From: Blastocatellia bacterium
Lineage (GTDB): Bacteria > Acidobacteriota > Blastocatellia > Chloracidobacteriales > JADJPF01
Assembly: GCA_025057015.1 (NCBI GenBank)
Contig: JANWYG010000017.1
Location: 124,001-188,000 of the forward strand
Length of the DNA: 64,000 nt
Reading direction: 5' to 3'
Position numbers and translations under genes: made by a program. Each line of letters starts with the position of its first letter. The first letter of the stretch is position 1. The notes under the pieces were generated by a model, which did not search any database, had not been told where the DNA came from, and saw only the letters and a program-made list of their open reading frames with translations. Positions 15,313 through 32,522 of this stretch are shown here, in pieces.

Positions 15313-16194
15313 ATGAGAGATTTTAAAAAGGAGTATATCGCATATCTAGCAGCCGAACGCGGGCTTTCTACAAATACCCTGGAAGCATACTGCAGAGACG
15401 TCGATGGACTAAGCAGATATGCAACCGAGCGGGGAAAGTGCCTGCTCACGCTCGAGCGAGCAGATGTAGCTGAATATCTCAAGCATCTGCGCCAGCGCGG
15501 TCTTGGCGCTAACACCGTCATGAGGCACATAGCCTCAATACGAGGACTCTATAAGTTTCTCCTCCTGGACGGCCATATAAAAGCTGATCCAACGGTAGAC
15601 TTAAAAGCTCCAAGAGGCCGGCAGATACTGCCAAAATTCTTGACACTAGAAGAAATAGAACTTTTGCTCGCTCAGCCAGACCGTAGTACAGACGAAGGTA
15701 TACGCGACCTAGCCATGCTGCAGTTATTATATGCCACAGGTCTACGCGTGTCAGAATTGGTAATGCTGAAGCTGAAAGATATAAACCTAGAAACAGGCCT
15801 ACTGAACTGTTTTGGCAAGGGTAGCAAGGAGCGTAGCGTTCCCTTCGGTAAAGCTGCAGAGAAAGCCCTACGCGACTATTTGCCGGTAAGACAACGCCTT
15901 CTGAGCAATAAAGCTAGCACCTATCTGTTTGTTGGAGCCAACGGCAAAAAGCTTTCTAGACAGCAATTTTGGAAGGCAATAGCAGAGTACGGCTATAAAG
16001 CAGGTATAGGACACATAACACCGCACATGATACGACATACCTTCGCTACTCACTTACTAGAGCACGGAGCTGACTTGCGCTCGGTACAGATAATGCTAGG
16101 TCACAGCGACATATCCACGACTCAAGTATACACGCACGTTACAAACGAGCGTCTGCGCGAGGTTTATGAAAGATGCCATCCGCGGGCAAAGTAG
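15313..16194 (+). CDS. xerD: Site-specific tyrosine recombinase XerD (XerC/D family)
   Basis: This enzyme resolves chromosome dimers at dif together with its partner XerC. The N-terminal SAM-like core-binding domain covers about 1-90. The catalytic domain has the full set of active residues: R145 (TGLRVSEL), K172 (KGSKER), H238 and R241 (HMIRHTFATH), H264 (LGHSDISTTQ) and Y273 (VYTHV). The length of 293 residues is normal. XerC and XerD are hard to separate by eye; the ERGLSTNTLEAYCRD start resembles XerD. A dif-like site lies about 10 kb away in the same window (25876-25903). Confidence 0.92.
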   Translation: MRDFKKEYIAYLAAERGLSTNTLEAYCRDVDGLSRYATERGKCLLTLERADVAEYLKHLRQRGLGANTVMRHIASIRGLYKFLLLDGHIKADPTVDLKAPRGRQILPKFLTLEEIELLLAQPDRSTDEGIRDLAMLQLLYATGLRVSELVMLKLKDINLETGLLNCFGKGSKERSVPFGKAAEKALRDYLPVRQRLLSNKASTYLFVGANGKKLSRQQFWKAIAEYGYKAGIGHITPHMIRHTFATHLLEHGADLRSVQIMLGHSDISTTQVYTHVTNERLREVYERCHPRAK

Positions 16195-24261: not shown

Positions 24262-25263
24262 CTAGAAAAAACGCCTGTAGATGTTAAAGCCAATGGTCAG
24301 GCCTTTCCGCAAATCGCCGAAGTTGCCGAAGCCTGAGTTCATCCTGCTCGAAGTCGTCTGTTGTGTGTTTGAGAACGTCAAGGTGAATATGTGCCTATAG
24401 GTACGCTTCTGTATACCAAACGAGATGGTGGCGTCAGGCTGAGGTTTGTACCCTACACGCGGAATGTACTCAAAGATCAGGCTTGCCGTGGGCCGGAAGT
24501 TGAGCTGTCCGCCAAGGCCGAAGGCTACGGTATGGTTGTCTGCCTCGCCTTGGTTGGGAGGAGAGCTGCTACTGAATATGACTGCAGGTTCGTCAACGTT
24601 GCTGTTGAGCGAGATTATCGGAGAGAAATGTATCGAGCCATATTGCTTGATGCTATGAGCAAGCTGAAAGCCTATGTTCGCAGTGTAACGCTCGCTGAAG
24701 TTGTCGCGGCCTTCAACGCTGAAGTAAGCCGCGGCATCAAGCGGAATGCGCTTACCCTGCCGCAACAAGTTCAGACCTAGCAGCAGTTCAACGTTCCTTT
24801 CGAGCGGCGTGCGGTAGGCCCTCGCGTACAATCGGTCAGTGATCCCATAAGATAACCCAAAGCCTGAATAGGAAAAGCTGTCCAGCCCGAATAGGTCTGG
24901 TGGAGAGTCTTTAGTAAAGAACGGCTGAGTAAATCGGTGGGTGAAGTGAATGGCGAGGGAGTTTTTCTCGAACCTGCGCGGCGTTGGCAGGTTAACTAAT
25001 TCGTAGCCATAGCTAGGTTCTTCGTTCTCATCCTTCGGCTCTGCCCCCTTCTGCGCTTGCTGCTGCGAGATGTCTTGGCTAGTGGTCTCCTGCTGCCGAG
25101 CAGCTAGCGGGGTAGGACTGGCGGGGTCATCGACTGTCCAAATCTGCCGAGCGGTGTCCACCTTTATCTTTTTGCCGTGGATTTGTATGACTGCCTCTGA
25201 TGGGCTAGTAAAAGTGACTATTGGTTCTTCAGTCAACAGCAGTAACGCCAGTAGTACGTACAT
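24262..25263 (-). CDS. Outer-membrane beta-barrel protein (DUF5777-like)
   Basis: A short signal peptide (about 1-13) leads to a 70-residue polar Gln/Pro/Glu-rich region. A beta-rich domain follows, with alternating hydrophobic strands and many aromatic residues (IHFTHRFTQPF, GFGLSYGITDRLYARAYRT, AAYFSVEGRDNFSERYTANIGFQL, FIYEYIPRVGY-type strands). The final residue is Phe (FNIYRRFF), as expected for a BAM-assembled barrel. A DUF5777-type barrel fits best; the substrate or function is unknown. GGAGG stands at proper distance from the ATG. On the plus strand this gene is G-rich, which matters for the skew observation at 25.8 kb. Confidence 0.75.
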   Translation of the reverse strand: MYVLLALLLLTEEPIVTFTSPSEAVIQIHGKKIKVDTARQIWTVDDPASPTPLAARQQETTSQDISQQQAQKGAEPKDENEEPSYGYELVNLPTPRRFEKNSLAIHFTHRFTQPFFTKDSPPDLFGLDSFSYSGFGLSYGITDRLYARAYRTPLERNVELLLGLNLLRQGKRIPLDAAAYFSVEGRDNFSERYTANIGFQLAHSIKQYGSIHFSPIISLNSNVDEPAVIFSSSSPPNQGEADNHTVAFGLGGQLNFRPTASLIFEYIPRVGYKPQPDATISFGIQKRTYRHIFTLTFSNTQQTTSSRMNSGFGNFGDLRKGLTIGFNIYRRFF

Positions 25264-25273
25264 ATAACCTCCT

Positions 25274-25774
25274 TTAAACGAGCTTCTTATAGCTTGCTCC
25301 GGTTTGCGAAATTGCGGGTAGCCTGGCGTCCGAGAACAGATGGACGTAGGCGTAGACTTGGCCTCTGTGGTGGCTTATGTGCATCAGGGTCCTGATCAAG
25401 AGACTTCCTATAGTGTGCGGAGTGCGATCTGGCAAAAAAACCAGCTTTTGCAGGTCCTGCTCGGTGAGATAGTGAAAGACCCTTCGGCGCACTTGAGCCA
25501 CTTCATTTAGGTACTCAGATATCCTTTGCGGATCAGGCAGAGCCTCGCGTGTCGTCCACTCGTGCGGATGATCCCAGTAGTTAGCACTTAACCCGTTGAA
25601 CAAGTACTCCTGTATCTGGGCTATGTGAATGATGAGCTCGCCGACTGAGAGCACTTTCAGAAAGGTAGCATGTGAGAAGGGTTTCCAGTAGATTCTGTCG
25701 GGCGGTACTATTTTGAGGATCTCCTGCAAGTTGGAGTCGACAATCTCAAACTCGTTGCGAAGTTCCGCAAGCAT
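25274..25774 (-). CDS. DinB-family protein
   Basis: This 166-residue protein is a four-helix bundle of the DinB/YfiT type. The metal-binding histidines are visible in ELIIHIAQIQEYLF (first) and LMHISHHRGQVYAYVHL (second and third). Family members are thiol S-transferases or metal-dependent enzymes of unknown substrate; the name from DNA damage induction does not imply a role in repair. AGGT precedes the ATG. It is ten bases upstream of the barrel gene on the same strand, so the two may be co-transcribed. On the other side lies the dif-like region. Confidence 0.88.
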   Translation of the reverse strand: MLAELRNEFEIVDSNLQEILKIVPPDRIYWKPFSHATFLKVLSVGELIIHIAQIQEYLFNGLSANYWDHPHEWTTREALPDPQRISEYLNEVAQVRRRVFHYLTEQDLQKLVFLPDRTPHTIGSLLIRTLMHISHHRGQVYAYVHLFSDARLPAISQTGASYKKLV

Positions 25775-25875
25775 CTTACTACCTCTATGTTAGGAGACTT
25801 GAACCGAGTATATAGCCGTAGAAAATTTGGCGCTACTGTGAAGGGCGGACTCTGGGGAACTTAGACATAACAGTT

Positions 25876-25903
25876 GCGTCTGATAATAGATCTTATGTTA
25901 TAT
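25876..25903 (+). other. Candidate dif site (XerC/XerD recombination site)
   Basis: The sequence fits an 11-6-11 dif layout: left arm GCGTCTGATAA (25876-25886), centre TAGATC (25887-25892), right arm TTATGTTATAT (25893-25903). The right arm differs from the E. coli XerD arm (TTATGTTAAAT) at one position. The inner ATAA/TTAT symmetry is present. The left arm is weaker, matching mainly at its inner end. It lies in a 215-base gap that holds no gene, where the G/C skew changes sign. Assignment depends on genome-wide data. Confidence 0.45.
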
Positions 25904-25989
25904 ATCCGCATTACCTGCGAGGTGTACATCGCTAAGAACTGCCTGCCGTGCTAAGCTAAGTACCACACCTAACTTCGCATGGAGGCTGC

Positions 25990-26568
25990 ATGGAAGCACA
26001 AAAGCAGCAGGGCTACCACGTGCAAGGTAGCCTCATTAAGGCAAGAATACTCTACATACACGTCAACCATGGAGCAAGTGCCCTAAAGGAAGTCTTGGCT
26101 CTGCTACCCGAAGACCTAAGGGGTATGCTGTCCAAGCCAGTCTATATAGGCGAGTGGTACCCGCTAGCGTTACTTACAGAGCTGGATCGCGCTATAGTTA
26201 ACCTACTCGGCCAAGGAAACGAACGGGTGCACGAGGAGCTAGGGTCATTTTCGGCCGACATTAATCTGAGCGGTGCTTATGAGCCGCTAGTGCACCAAGA
26301 TATACACGAGTTTTTGCGCCTTACAGCCTTCCTTCACCGAAACTACCAAGACTTCGGAGAAGCCAGGTACATCAAGCTTGGCGAAACCGCTGCCTTGCTG
26401 CAGTTCAGCTACCCACAGGCTCCGCCCGAAGCCTTCTGCAAAAGCGGAGCGGGCTACTTCAGGCGCGCTGTGGAGCTCTGTGGCGGTTTGCGCGTCTCAG
26501 TCAAGATAGCAGCCTGCATGAGGCTGGGCGATCCCAAATGCGAGTTCAGAATAGAGTGGTCAACATAG
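25990..26568 (+). CDS. V4R / DUF2378-like small-molecule-sensor domain protein
   Basis: The 192-residue protein has no signal and no membrane helix. Its C-terminal part (GGLRVSVKIAACMRLGDPKCEFRIEW) has the Cys-x-x-x-Gly-Asp-x-x-Cys-x-F arrangement typical of V4R domains. The rest resembles the fold shared by V4R, heme-NO-binding and myxobacterial DUF2378 proteins, with IYIHVNHGASALKEVL-like opening strands. V4R domains bind small hydrocarbons or a tetrapyrrole precursor and often act as sensors. Three cysteines (about residues 154, 167 and 178) are well placed for a metal. It is the first gene to the right of the dif-like site. GGAGG stands four bases from the ATG. Confidence 0.65.
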   Translation: MEAQKQQGYHVQGSLIKARILYIHVNHGASALKEVLALLPEDLRGMLSKPVYIGEWYPLALLTELDRAIVNLLGQGNERVHEELGSFSADINLSGAYEPLVHQDIHEFLRLTAFLHRNYQDFGEARYIKLGETAALLQFSYPQAPPEAFCKSGAGYFRRAVELCGGLRVSVKIAACMRLGDPKCEFRIEWST

Positions 26569-26640
26569 GCTGGCTTGGTTGTGAAACTGCCAAGGGATAG
26601 AATCGTGTTTAGAGTTTAAATTAAACTTACAGAGTATAAA

Positions 26641-27804
26641 CTAGTTTGATTTAGTGAACTTTACTTCCAGCACGTTGTCGCAGAAGCGTGCTCTTGTGGG
26701 GCGATATCCCGCCATAGCTGGCGGCAAGCTGATTATCCGACGTTGATTGTCCAGCTGCAGGATGAGCTCGCTGCCCGTACTGCGTATTCTTAGGTGCTCC
26801 TTGCACAACATAGGTAAGCACATGCACAGCAGGTACTCGCCCCCCTCCTTTCTAAATTCAATTACTCTCGCCCGGTGTAAGAGCGCTGCCGGATCAGTTT
26901 CAGCAAAAATATCTCTCGCAAGCTGCTCAAGAGACTCAAGCCCAACGACCTCAGAAGGATAGAATGGCGCCTTAAGTACCGGCAGGGGAGCAAAGCTGTG
27001 ACTAATCTCGTCGACATAGCTGTTCTGCCGTAGTCGCCAGCCGTCAAGATATCCAGCCTCCTTGCTGAGCACTCTGTTGACAATAACCGCATCCACCAGC
27101 AAGCCATAGAGACTCAGGTACGTAAGCGTGCGCTTGGACTCCTGAATAACCACCTTTTCAGGATTGAGAACCAGCCGCACGGAAGTGGATACTGTATCCC
27201 CCAGCAGTGATTTGAGCGACCTGAGTTTGGTCAACATTTCATCCAGAGCCTCAAAGACCTCTTCCGGTGCCAGATAGTCTTCAAGAGGTCCGGCTATTGC
27301 AGCAAACGGCTTTACAATTGCCCGGGCGCGCCTGAGAAGTTTCACCGTCCATGACAATGTTTGCGGCAGTGCAAGTAAACGCAGGGTTTCCCCGCTCGAC
27401 GCAGCGTCAACTACCACCAGGTCATAACTGGCTGCCAGATCCTTTATCCTGGCAAGACTAAACAGCTCATCCATCCCCGGCAATACAGCTATCTCATCCG
27501 CCAAAACCTCATCAAGTCCTTGCAGCGCAACCAACCGAGCGATGTGCTCCCGCACCGCTCCCCAATTCAGCTCCAACTCCCTGTAGGAGTTAATTTCCAC
27601 TGCCGCTAAGTTCTCTGCCACTTGCTTTGGAACATCGCCTAACTCCACACCCAAGCAGTCGCCGAGACTATGAGCTGCATCGGTGCTCATTACCACCGTT
27701 TTTAGACCTCGCTGCGCTGCTGCCAATGCCGTCGCCGCCGCAACTGACGTTTTACCCACTCCACCTTTGCCAGTGTAGATTATTACTCGCACCGCCAAAA
27801 TCAC
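26641..27804 (-). CDS. ArsA/GET3-type ATPase
   Basis: A deviant Walker A (YTGKGGVGKTSVAAATALA) opens a P-loop ATPase of the ArsA/Get3 group. Switch motifs follow (DAAHSLGDCLG, VVVDAASSGETLRLL). The C-terminal 75 residues are a beta-sandwich-like extension, as in the HSP20-type tail seen in some bacterial ArsA proteins. There is only one ATPase domain, whereas the arsenite-pump ArsA has two, so arsenite export is unlikely and no arsB neighbour is present. Homologues occur in phototrophic and acidobacterial genomes and may act in tail-anchored protein or cofactor insertion. The start is uncertain: GTG at 27804 or GTG at 27792, neither with a clear ribosome-binding site. Confidence 0.85.
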   Translation of the reverse strand: MILAVRVIIYTGKGGVGKTSVAAATALAAAQRGLKTVVMSTDAAHSLGDCLGVELGDVPKQVAENLAAVEINSYRELELNWGAVREHIARLVALQGLDEVLADEIAVLPGMDELFSLARIKDLAASYDLVVVDAASSGETLRLLALPQTLSWTVKLLRRARAIVKPFAAIAGPLEDYLAPEEVFEALDEMLTKLRSLKSLLGDTVSTSVRLVLNPEKVVIQESKRTLTYLSLYGLLVDAVIVNRVLSKEAGYLDGWRLRQNSYVDEISHSFAPLPVLKAPFYPSEVVGLESLEQLARDIFAETDPAALLHRARVIEFRKEGGEYLLCMCLPMLCKEHLRIRSTGSELILQLDNQRRIISLPPAMAGYRPTRARFCDNVLEVKFTKSN

Positions 27805-27972
27805 ACTCTATCTTCATCCTGCAAGGCTCCACAAAAACCTTCAACGCCCTTGCGCTCGCCACGAGGGCATAATCTAACACACAACTACATCCAGTTGAAA
27901 GCCCTGAACCGGATGACGCAAGTTGACTGCCTCAAAAGGCAAAGCTAAGCTTGTTAGGCCAAGCGAGAGCCT

Positions 27973-29223
27973 ATGAAGATATTCCAGACAATATCAGTAC
28001 TACTGACTACTGCTGCAGCCGCAAGTTACATCAATCATAAGATTGTCAGGCTTCCACCAACAATAGGCCTGATGGCATTATCAATGCTTGCCTCACTAGT
28101 TGCAGTAGGTCTGGGCAAGTTGGGGCTCGTCGAGCTAAATCGGATTGCTCTGTTTGTCAACCAGATAGACTTCGAGCAGATGCTGCTGCACGGCATGCTT
28201 GCGCTACTGCTGTTTGCCGGAGCTCTACATGTGGATCTCGGAGATCTCAAAGCCGTGCGCCTGCCGCTGACCATCTTGTCTACCGTTGGCGTAGCCATCG
28301 CTGCAGTAGCCACTGGAGCGCTCTTCTGGGCGGGTCTCAGCTACGCCGGAATGCAACTGCCCCTTATATACGCCCTCCTATTCGGAGCTCTGACCTCGCC
28401 AACGGACCCGATAGCAGTTCTCGGCATAATAAGGAAGGTCGGAGCACCGAAGGTCCTCGAGGCGAAGATAGCCGGCGAATCGCTGTTTAACGATGGCGTC
28501 GGCGTAGTTGTCTTCCTGACAATCCTCAGCTTCCTTACAAGCCCCCAAGCGCCAACCGCTAGCCAGGTTTTACTACTTCTCCTTCAGGAAGCCGTAGGCG
28601 GCGCAGCGTTCGGGCTGGCAATCGGCTATGCTTTCTACATATTCCTCAAATCAGTTGACGCTTATCAGGTCGAGATACTGCTTACCCTCGCCCTCGCTTG
28701 CGGAGGATACACCCTTGCCGAGGCGCTGCATCTGTCGGCTCCGATAGCCATAGTTGTGGCCGGCCTTCTAATAGGTAACCAAGGCCGCTCGCACGCTATG
28801 TCTGAAACCACCCGCCAGCATCTAGACACTTTCTGGGAGCTGATTGACGAGATCCTTAATTCGGTGCTGTTCGTATTAATAGGCCTTGAGCTAATCGTCA
28901 TACCATTAACCTGGAGCTACCTCGCCGCCGGACTATTCGGCATAGCAGCTTCCCTCGTAGGCCGCTACGTGAGTGTGATCCTGCCAATAGCGCTTCCTGG
29001 ACCAAAGCTAGGACCTCCTTTAAGAACTGGATTCCTACTCACCTGGGGAGGCTTACGTGGCGGAATATCCATAGCGCTTGCCCTGTCGCTTCCAAGTGGC
29101 CAGGAACGCGAGATGCTGCTTGCGGTTACTTACCTTACAGTCAGCTTCTCCGTGCTGGTACAAGGGCTTACCTTTGGAAAGCTAATAGGCTGCCTCAATC
29201 CGGCAGCCTCCTCGAAGAACTGA
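27973..29223 (+). CDS. Na+/H+ antiporter, CPA1 (NhaP-like) family
   Basis: About twelve membrane helices run through the 416 residues. The CPA1 signatures are the PTDPIAVLGI-type segment (FGALTSPTDPIAVLGIIRKVGAP) and FNDGVGVVVFL, with the acidic residues that bind the cation, plus the late motif TWGGLRGGISIALALSLP. The protein exchanges sodium for protons across the inner membrane, for pH and salt balance. A cytoplasmic C-terminal tail is almost absent. GCGAGAG is the only ribosome-binding-like sequence. It is divergent from the ArsA-like gene, with about 170 bases between starts. Confidence 0.93.
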   Translation: MKIFQTISVLLTTAAAASYINHKIVRLPPTIGLMALSMLASLVAVGLGKLGLVELNRIALFVNQIDFEQMLLHGMLALLLFAGALHVDLGDLKAVRLPLTILSTVGVAIAAVATGALFWAGLSYAGMQLPLIYALLFGALTSPTDPIAVLGIIRKVGAPKVLEAKIAGESLFNDGVGVVVFLTILSFLTSPQAPTASQVLLLLLQEAVGGAAFGLAIGYAFYIFLKSVDAYQVEILLTLALACGGYTLAEALHLSAPIAIVVAGLLIGNQGRSHAMSETTRQHLDTFWELIDEILNSVLFVLIGLELIVIPLTWSYLAAGLFGIAASLVGRYVSVILPIALPGPKLGPPLRTGFLLTWGGLRGGISIALALSLPSGQEREMLLAVTYLTVSFSVLVQGLTFGKLIGCLNPAASSKN

Positions 29224-31166: not shown

Positions 31167-32522
31167 ATCTATCTTCAGCTCTTTCATTTTGCTAAGCAGC
31201 GTCTTGTAGCTTATCCTCAGCGATTCAGCAGCCTTGGCTTTGTTAAAGCCACTTTCGCGTAGTGCCATCTCTATCTTTTTTTTCTGAACCAAATTGAGCG
31301 CCCGTTCGCTGACCTCGTCAAGCGATCCGCTGTAGTCAAACTCGCTCGGTTCAACCTTACGGGTCTGCTCGAGCTGCAGATCTACAGAAGTGACCTTCTT
31401 ACCATCGCACAATATGACTGCCCGCTCTATGCAGTTTTCCAGCTCACGCACATTTCCGGGCCAGTCATAAGACTTAAGCGCCGCCAGGGCCTCTTCGTCA
31501 AAGGAAAGGTCCGTTTTGCGAATCTCTCTAGCATATCGCCTCAAGAACTCCAGTGCCAGGGGTTCTATATCTTCCCGCCTTGCGCGCAGCGGTGGTATCA
31601 CTACTGGGAAGACAGCTAGCCTAAAGTATAGGTCTTCGCGAAATCGCTTTTCGGACATAGCCTTTCCCAGATCCTGGTTTGTTGCGGCCACAATCCGCAC
31701 GTTTACAGGAATATCGCTACGGCCGCCCACGCGAGTGATACGGCGCTCTTGAAGCACGCGTAGCAGCTTTGTTTGCAAATTAGGTGGGAGCTCAGCTATC
31801 TCATCCAAAAACAAGGTCCCGTTCTGCGCTAGCTCAAACTTTCCTATAGCCCTAGAGTCAGCCCCTGTGTATGCTCCTCGCTCATGCCCAAACAGTTCGT
31901 TCTCAATGAGTGACTCAGGTATAGCAGCACAGTTAATAGCCACGAAAGGGCCTTCGCGCCGCTTGCTGAGATAGTGAACGGCACGTGCAAAAAGCTCCTT
32001 CCCGCACCCAGACTCTCCAAGCAGCAGAACTGTAGCGTCCGTATCTGCAACCTGCTGGATAGCTTTACTAGCCTTCTTGATACCTTCGGATTCGCCTATT
32101 ATCCGCGGAAAGCCGTACCTGCGTGAAAATTCCTCTTTGAGAAGAAGATTTTCCGTGCGCAACCGCATCGATTCTATTGCCCGCTCCATCAGCAGCAGCA
32201 AATGCCTCGTATCCACAGGTTTCTGCAGGAAGTCGTATGCTCCTTCCTTCATAGCTTGTACTGCCTCATCTACCGATCCATACGCAGTCATCACTATTAC
32301 CGGTGCTTCTGGACAAACTTCCTTGGAGTACTTAAGCACGTCAAGACCACTGCCGCGGGGCAACCTCAGGTCGGTCAGCACAAGCTGGATTGCTCTACTG
32401 TCGAGTACCTTGACAGCTTCTGCGAGGTCTCTTGCCTCTAAAGCCTGATAGCCAGCATGCTCGAGCGTTAGTCGCAGAACCTGACGCAAGGAGTCCTTGT
32501 CCTCAACTATGAGGATGTCCAT
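31158..32522 (-). CDS. NtrC-family sigma-54-dependent response regulator
   Basis: A receiver domain (about 1-120, with the phosphorylated Asp in LVLTDLRLPRGSG) is followed by an AAA+ activator domain. The latter has Walker A GESGCGKELFARAVH, the sigma-54 contact loop GAYTGA (Tyr in place of the common Phe) and Walker B GTLFLDEIAELP. A Fis-type helix-turn-helix ends the protein (NKAKAAESLRISYKTLLSKMKEL). It opens sigma-54 promoters when phosphorylated. No histidine kinase is next to it. It starts directly after the stop of the upstream coiled-coil gene (TGA then ATG), so the two are co-transcribed. Confidence 0.95.
   Translation of the reverse strand: MDILIVEDKDSLRQVLRLTLEHAGYQALEARDLAEAVKVLDSRAIQLVLTDLRLPRGSGLDVLKYSKEVCPEAPVIVMTAYGSVDEAVQAMKEGAYDFLQKPVDTRHLLLLMERAIESMRLRTENLLLKEEFSRRYGFPRIIGESEGIKKASKAIQQVADTDATVLLLGESGCGKELFARAVHYLSKRREGPFVAINCAAIPESLIENELFGHERGAYTGADSRAIGKFELAQNGTLFLDEIAELPPNLQTKLLRVLQERRITRVGGRSDIPVNVRIVAATNQDLGKAMSEKRFREDLYFRLAVFPVVIPPLRARREDIEPLALEFLRRYAREIRKTDLSFDEEALAALKSYDWPGNVRELENCIERAVILCDGKKVTSVDLQLEQTRKVEPSEFDYSGSLDEVSERALNLVQKKKIEMALRESGFNKAKAAESLRISYKTLLSKMKELKIDLP

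Follow-up and report, generated by a model that had tools for sequence, protein, structure and literature searches.

A probable chromosomal dif site at a GC-skew step in a Blastocatellia (Acidobacteriota) genome

The GC skew of the plus strand falls next to a short dif-like sequence in the genome of a bacterium placed in the class Blastocatellia (Acidobacteriota). Is this sequence the dif site of the chromosome, and does the skew around it fit a replication terminus? The window, which is the whole stretch of 64,000 nucleotides analyzed, corresponds to C8:124001-188000 of the draft genome G000 (3.33 Mb, 23 contigs, 97% complete). From sequence comparisons, we conclude that positions 25876-25903 of the window are very probably the chromosomal dif site of this bacterium (probability about 0.94).

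The candidate site and its resemblance to E. coli dif

An earlier note, made from the letters of the window, had described an 11-6-11 site in a 215-base gap. The gap (25775-25989) separates a DinB_2 gene on the minus strand from a plus-strand gene that matches V4R only weakly, and the site is present in it at 25876-25903. Its distance is 101 bases to the left gene and 86 bases to the right gene. The full candidate dif is GCGTCTGATAA-TAGATC-TTATGTTATAT, which gives 28 bp with two 11-bp arms, a 6-bp centre and an XerD-type right arm. When repeats were searched for within the 215-base gap, just short, chance-like matches were found. The features are listed in Table 1.

Table 1. Positions of the candidate dif site, its surroundings and xerD in the window
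Feature	Positions	Strand	Remarks
Position of the outer A-Y-A-Y element (ATAA here)	25868..25871	+	5-8 bases outside the left arm
dif left arm, XerC-type, GCGTCTGATAA	25876..25886	+	same letters in 8 other BLAST-matched genomes; base of the class-wide pattern
dif central region, TAGATC	25887..25892	+	6 bases; length fixed by the pattern used
dif right arm, XerD-type, TTATGTTATAT	25893..25903	+	single difference from the E. coli XerD arm
xerD	15313..16194	+	293 aa; TIGR02225 353.3 bits (cut-off 329.6); Phage_integrase and SAM-like N-terminal domain
Left neighbour gene, DinB_2 family	25274..25774	-	context only
Right neighbour gene	25990..26568	+	V4R match weak, below cut-off; context only

The 28-mer occurs once in the 64-kb window. 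In the own genome (assembly 97% complete), one site was detected for the whole 28-mer with up to 3 mismatches, and no better dif match was found elsewhere at this threshold. Since only one dif site was found, there is no sign of a second replicon in this genome.

The XerD (right) arm of E. coli dif is TTATGTTAAAT. The right arm of the candidate differs from it at one base, just as the note had reported, and both start with TTATGTTA. The left arms are different: GCGTCTGATAA, the class consensus, in the host, and GGTGCGCATAA in E. coli. No other sequence of the window comes closer to E. coli dif than the site, which matches at 19/28. However, 19/28 or better was reached in 46 of 200 simulated windows with the same dinucleotide make-up. 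Thus, likeness to E. coli dif is no evidence by itself, and judging the site by this similarity alone was ruled out. The same simulation speaks for an alternative, in which the dif-like sequence is a chance match and the skew step arises from a change of gene orientation or an acquired segment alone.

Conservation in the class and the recombination machinery

To find the site without presupposing a motif, the whole 215-base gap was compared by BLAST with 58 genomes (G000 included). Nine genomes matched, including the own genome. In the remaining eight, only the dif core was aligned, over 24 to 42 bases with 81-100% identity (up to 25/25). Of 162 genomes of the class, 66 contain the pattern GCGTCTGATAAN6TTATG, and these belong to 23 of 53 genera; read backwards, the pattern was detected in none of the 162. 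This result, together with the skew switch at the sites of the relatives (below), contradicts a chance match, and we regard that alternative as very improbable. The exact pattern is absent from 96 of the 162 genomes, which was counted against the site; the absence is due in part to variation (GAGTC and GCGTCC forms) and to incomplete assemblies. With up to 2 mismatches, 31 of 35 chosen genomes were matched, several of them by chance as judged from the control columns, and no match was obtained for the remaining 4 of 35. The sequence is present in related genomes; its absence from them had been named in the earlier note as an outcome that would speak against its reading.

Within the class, the inner TTATGT of the right arm is conserved and its outer five bases only loosely so, and the letters of the centre are biased to TA-A-A. 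The centre TAGATC itself is found unchanged in Pyrinomonas (G027) and in G046. With the outer right arm as its loose part, the class differs from E. coli and B. subtilis.

Three relatives from the same order as the host (G006, G007 and G008) consist of two contigs each, of 2.64-2.68 and 1.00-1.08 Mb. The variant GAGTCTGATAAN6TTAYGT (GAGTCTGATAA form) was found on each of the two replicons in all three genomes, with one additional 2-mismatch match on G006 C2. In 6/6 of these replicons, the plus-strand skew is positive to the left and negative to the right of dif. The switch is sharp in Pyrinomonas (G027 C3; +0.187 and -0.175 in 40 kb on each side), which makes 7/7 replicons with dif at the skew switch; the contig of the window has a strong step without a positive left arm. 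The direction is the same, with weak values, in G060 (+0.013/-0.033) and G110 (+0.009/-0.058).

The copy number also bears on a further possibility, namely that the site is a landing site of mobile elements exploiting the Xer system and not the dif of the chromosome itself. The class pattern is present in two or three copies in 5 of the 66 genomes, and in Pyrinomonas methylaliphatogenes (L107:7460-7560) the dif centre and right half are followed by two more tandem copies of about 22-23 bases; both observations would suit such elements. Against this, exactly one copy was found in 61 of the 66 genomes, and each replicon of the two-replicon relatives carries one. Moreover, the neighbouring DNA is not shared, the window seems to carry the site without an integrated element, and the tyrosine recombinases of the own genome are XerC and XerD only. 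We therefore give the landing site hardly any weight. The finding of one dif copy per chromosome, in the own genome and in the relatives, is as in a chromosomal dif.

The genome encodes XerC, XerD and an FtsK with a gamma domain. xerD is located 9.7 kb from dif, and XerC (306 aa) is encoded on C11. Each protein scored above its own NCBIfam equivalog cut-off and below that of the other (TIGR02225 for XerD, TIGR02224 for XerC), and these two were the only Phage_integrase matches in the own genome. FtsK, encoded on C15, has alpha, motor and gamma domains, with FtsK_gamma above the cut-off. Single-recombinase systems (XerS/difSL and XerH/difH) were ruled out, since two recombinases exceed the TIGR02225 and TIGR02224 cut-offs. 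Thus, class conservation, the sites on each replicon, the skew switch in the relatives and the presence of XerC, XerD and FtsK gamma strongly support the dif reading.

The system resembles dif/XerCD of E. coli and B. subtilis in the 28-base 11-6-11 layout, in separate XerC and XerD, in FtsK with a gamma domain and, as seen in the relatives, in the position at the skew switch. By analogy with E. coli, the left arm would be bound by XerC and the right arm by XerD. When sister chromosomes have been fused by recombination, FtsK at the division septum would bring the two dif copies together, and its gamma domain would activate XerD. XerD and then XerC would exchange strands across the 6-base centre, and the sisters would be separated. 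The system is thus the familiar XerC/XerD/dif; what is new is the lineage consensus and one small unexplained outer element.

In Kono et al. 2011 (PMC3025954), dif was predicted for three Acidobacteria, with Acidobacterium capsulatum named. Those sites are from the same phylum and are the same type of prediction, with skew support. The authors report that in their genomes xerC is close to dif, with xerD in the vicinity of the origin. Here xerD is the near gene, which departs slightly from their finding. In the order of the host, the gene near dif is xerD and not xerC (10 kb in the window and 37 kb in three relatives). Twelve genomes were searched for the xerD orthologue (best match). Its distance from dif is 37 kb (G006-G008), 18 kb (G022), 73 kb (G027) or 136 kb (G021), and in the remaining 6 genomes a different contig carries the gene or the distance exceeds 1 Mb.

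Literature searches brought up no study of dif for Blastocatellia or Chloracidobacterium. For a phylum that has received little study, the results provide a dif consensus at the class level, which is backed by both replicons of the two-replicon relatives. With this consensus, termini and replicon number can be deduced for uncultured Acidobacteriota from their draft genomes.

GC skew around the site

The site would be placed in the replication terminus region, where the forks are presumed to meet, and the skew step at the site may be explained by this proposed location. The skew of the own contig was analyzed over 420,000 of the 420,249 bases of C8. The six hand counts of G and C on which the note had based its skew claim were exact (6/6). 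Its switch from plus to minus was confirmed in part: a fall from positive to negative is present near 26.0-26.8 kb, but there is no G-rich left replichore. In the own genome, the skew makes a step from about zero to negative and no clean plus-to-minus switch.

The cumulative skew within the window is maximal at 26766. After detrending, the cumulative skew of the whole contig peaks at C8:150796, 0.9 kb from the centre of the site; the raw curve, not detrended, has its maximum at the first base of C8. With 40-kb flanks, the downward step at the site exceeds those at all 1360 grid positions and is the largest of the contig. With 10-, 20- and 100-kb flanks, every larger step lies within 9 kb to the right of the site. 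Judged by the largest step, a skew maximum far from this position, which the note had set against its own reading, was not observed. A single likelihood changepoint of G versus C in the window fell at 31168, 5 kb right of the site, which counts against it; this shift is explained by the negative skew, which deepens rightward.

To the right of the site, 27/27 bins of 10 kb are negative. In the 150 kb to the left, 4/15 bins are positive, with a weakly negative mean. Skew in the other own contigs sampled is mostly of a size of about 0.1. The segment C8:1-149800, which includes positions 1-25800 of the window, has almost no net GC skew, and its third-position skew has the "wrong" sign.

Third-codon-position skew is largely free of the gene-orientation effect; the values given are means over both gene strands. 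To the left, they are about -0.17, -0.14 and -0.10 in three 50-kb steps toward the site and about zero over the final 14 kb. In the 38 kb to the right, the value is about -0.28. Since the left side has the sign of the right side at a weaker level and approaches zero in the last 14 kb, the local positive skew is partly due to gene orientation. This contribution on the left side favors the explanation of the step by gene orientation. However, the non-coding skew also jumps across the site, from -0.008 to -0.171, which argues against orientation alone. The skew thus makes a sharp step at the site, but the left arm is not positive as it would be at a textbook terminus.

The polarity of GGGNAGGG words was also counted. 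The words pointing toward the site outnumber the others 17 to 1 on the right arm of the own contig and 80 to 27 on the sampled G008 C1. On the left 150 kb, the count was 5 to 4, that is, no polarity. When other own contigs were included, they were oriented by their skew, and the count is partly circular. Because the word also follows G richness, its polarity is weak evidence. When KOPS-like words (7- and 8-mers with polarity) were looked for, no single one stood out.

How can the left side be explained, if dif is real? We lean slightly toward a recent movement or inversion of the left 150 kb, either real or caused by an assembly error, which would leave the terminus skew visible from the right only. 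The third-position skew of the left piece, with the sign of the right arm before it vanishes close to the site, and the lost GGGNAGGG polarity agree with this idea, whereas no breakpoint was identified. As to the kind of event, a recent inversion, a transfer or an assembly fault of the ~150 kb is possible. A moved or inverted left piece adds to the explanation by dif and does not compete with it. Here dif and skew disagree on one side of the terminus, and such disagreement is a possible sign of recent rearrangement.

A short element outside the left arm

The flank of the left arm was compared among 47 distinct sites from entries titled Acidobacteriota and 30 sites from other phyla, where chance matches may be included in the latter. 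The base directly before the left arm was numbered 0. Since the sample was drawn with the exact left arm, it describes the flank and says nothing on variation within that arm. A was found at -6 in 40/47 Acidobacteriota sites versus 11/30 from other phyla, and at -8 in 31/47 versus 9/30; the counts in the other phyla are near background. A pyrimidine occupies -7 in 39/47 and -5 in 37/47 Acidobacteriota sites, and the pyrimidine-A step at -7/-6 is present in 33/47 versus 4/30. Against the background of the sample itself, the binomial tails are 4.5e-16 at -6 and 6.4e-8 at -8. The window fits this A-Y-A-Y at -8, -7 and -6, but not at -5.

Farther out in the flank, from -17 to -9, the columns stay close to background (smallest tail 0.01). 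Therefore, common descent of the flanks explains A-Y-A-Y poorly. Among 20 variant sites, a sample partly independent of the first, A was found in 12/20 at each of -6 and -8, which is weaker support.

In literature searches on dif, no description of an A-Y-A-Y element was found; it is something that 28-base dif models leave out. We tentatively suggest, as an idea with rather less than even chances, that the Acidobacteriota dif is an extended site composed of the 28-mer and a functional A-Y-A-Y, which might be read in synapsis by a lineage-specific XerC contact or by a further protein.

Lineage-specific dif flanks have a precedent, because the Thermococcales dif has conserved AT-rich flanks of ~23 bases (PMC2958812). 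The two lineages are alike in having lineage-specific conserved sequence outside the 28-mer. They are different in that the Thermococcales flanks comprise ~23 AT-rich bases with one recombinase, XerA, whereas the element here is four bases, on the XerC side, with two recombinases. In Acinetobacter, one family of insertion sequences inserts at a distance of 5 bp from the XerC arm, on its outer side (PMC10132070).

On the other side of dif, a GGCTTTGCC-type word is located a few bases to the right in several genera (L020, L162, L168 and L085). In some of them AAAGGC comes next. The word may belong to a shared hairpin or repeat.
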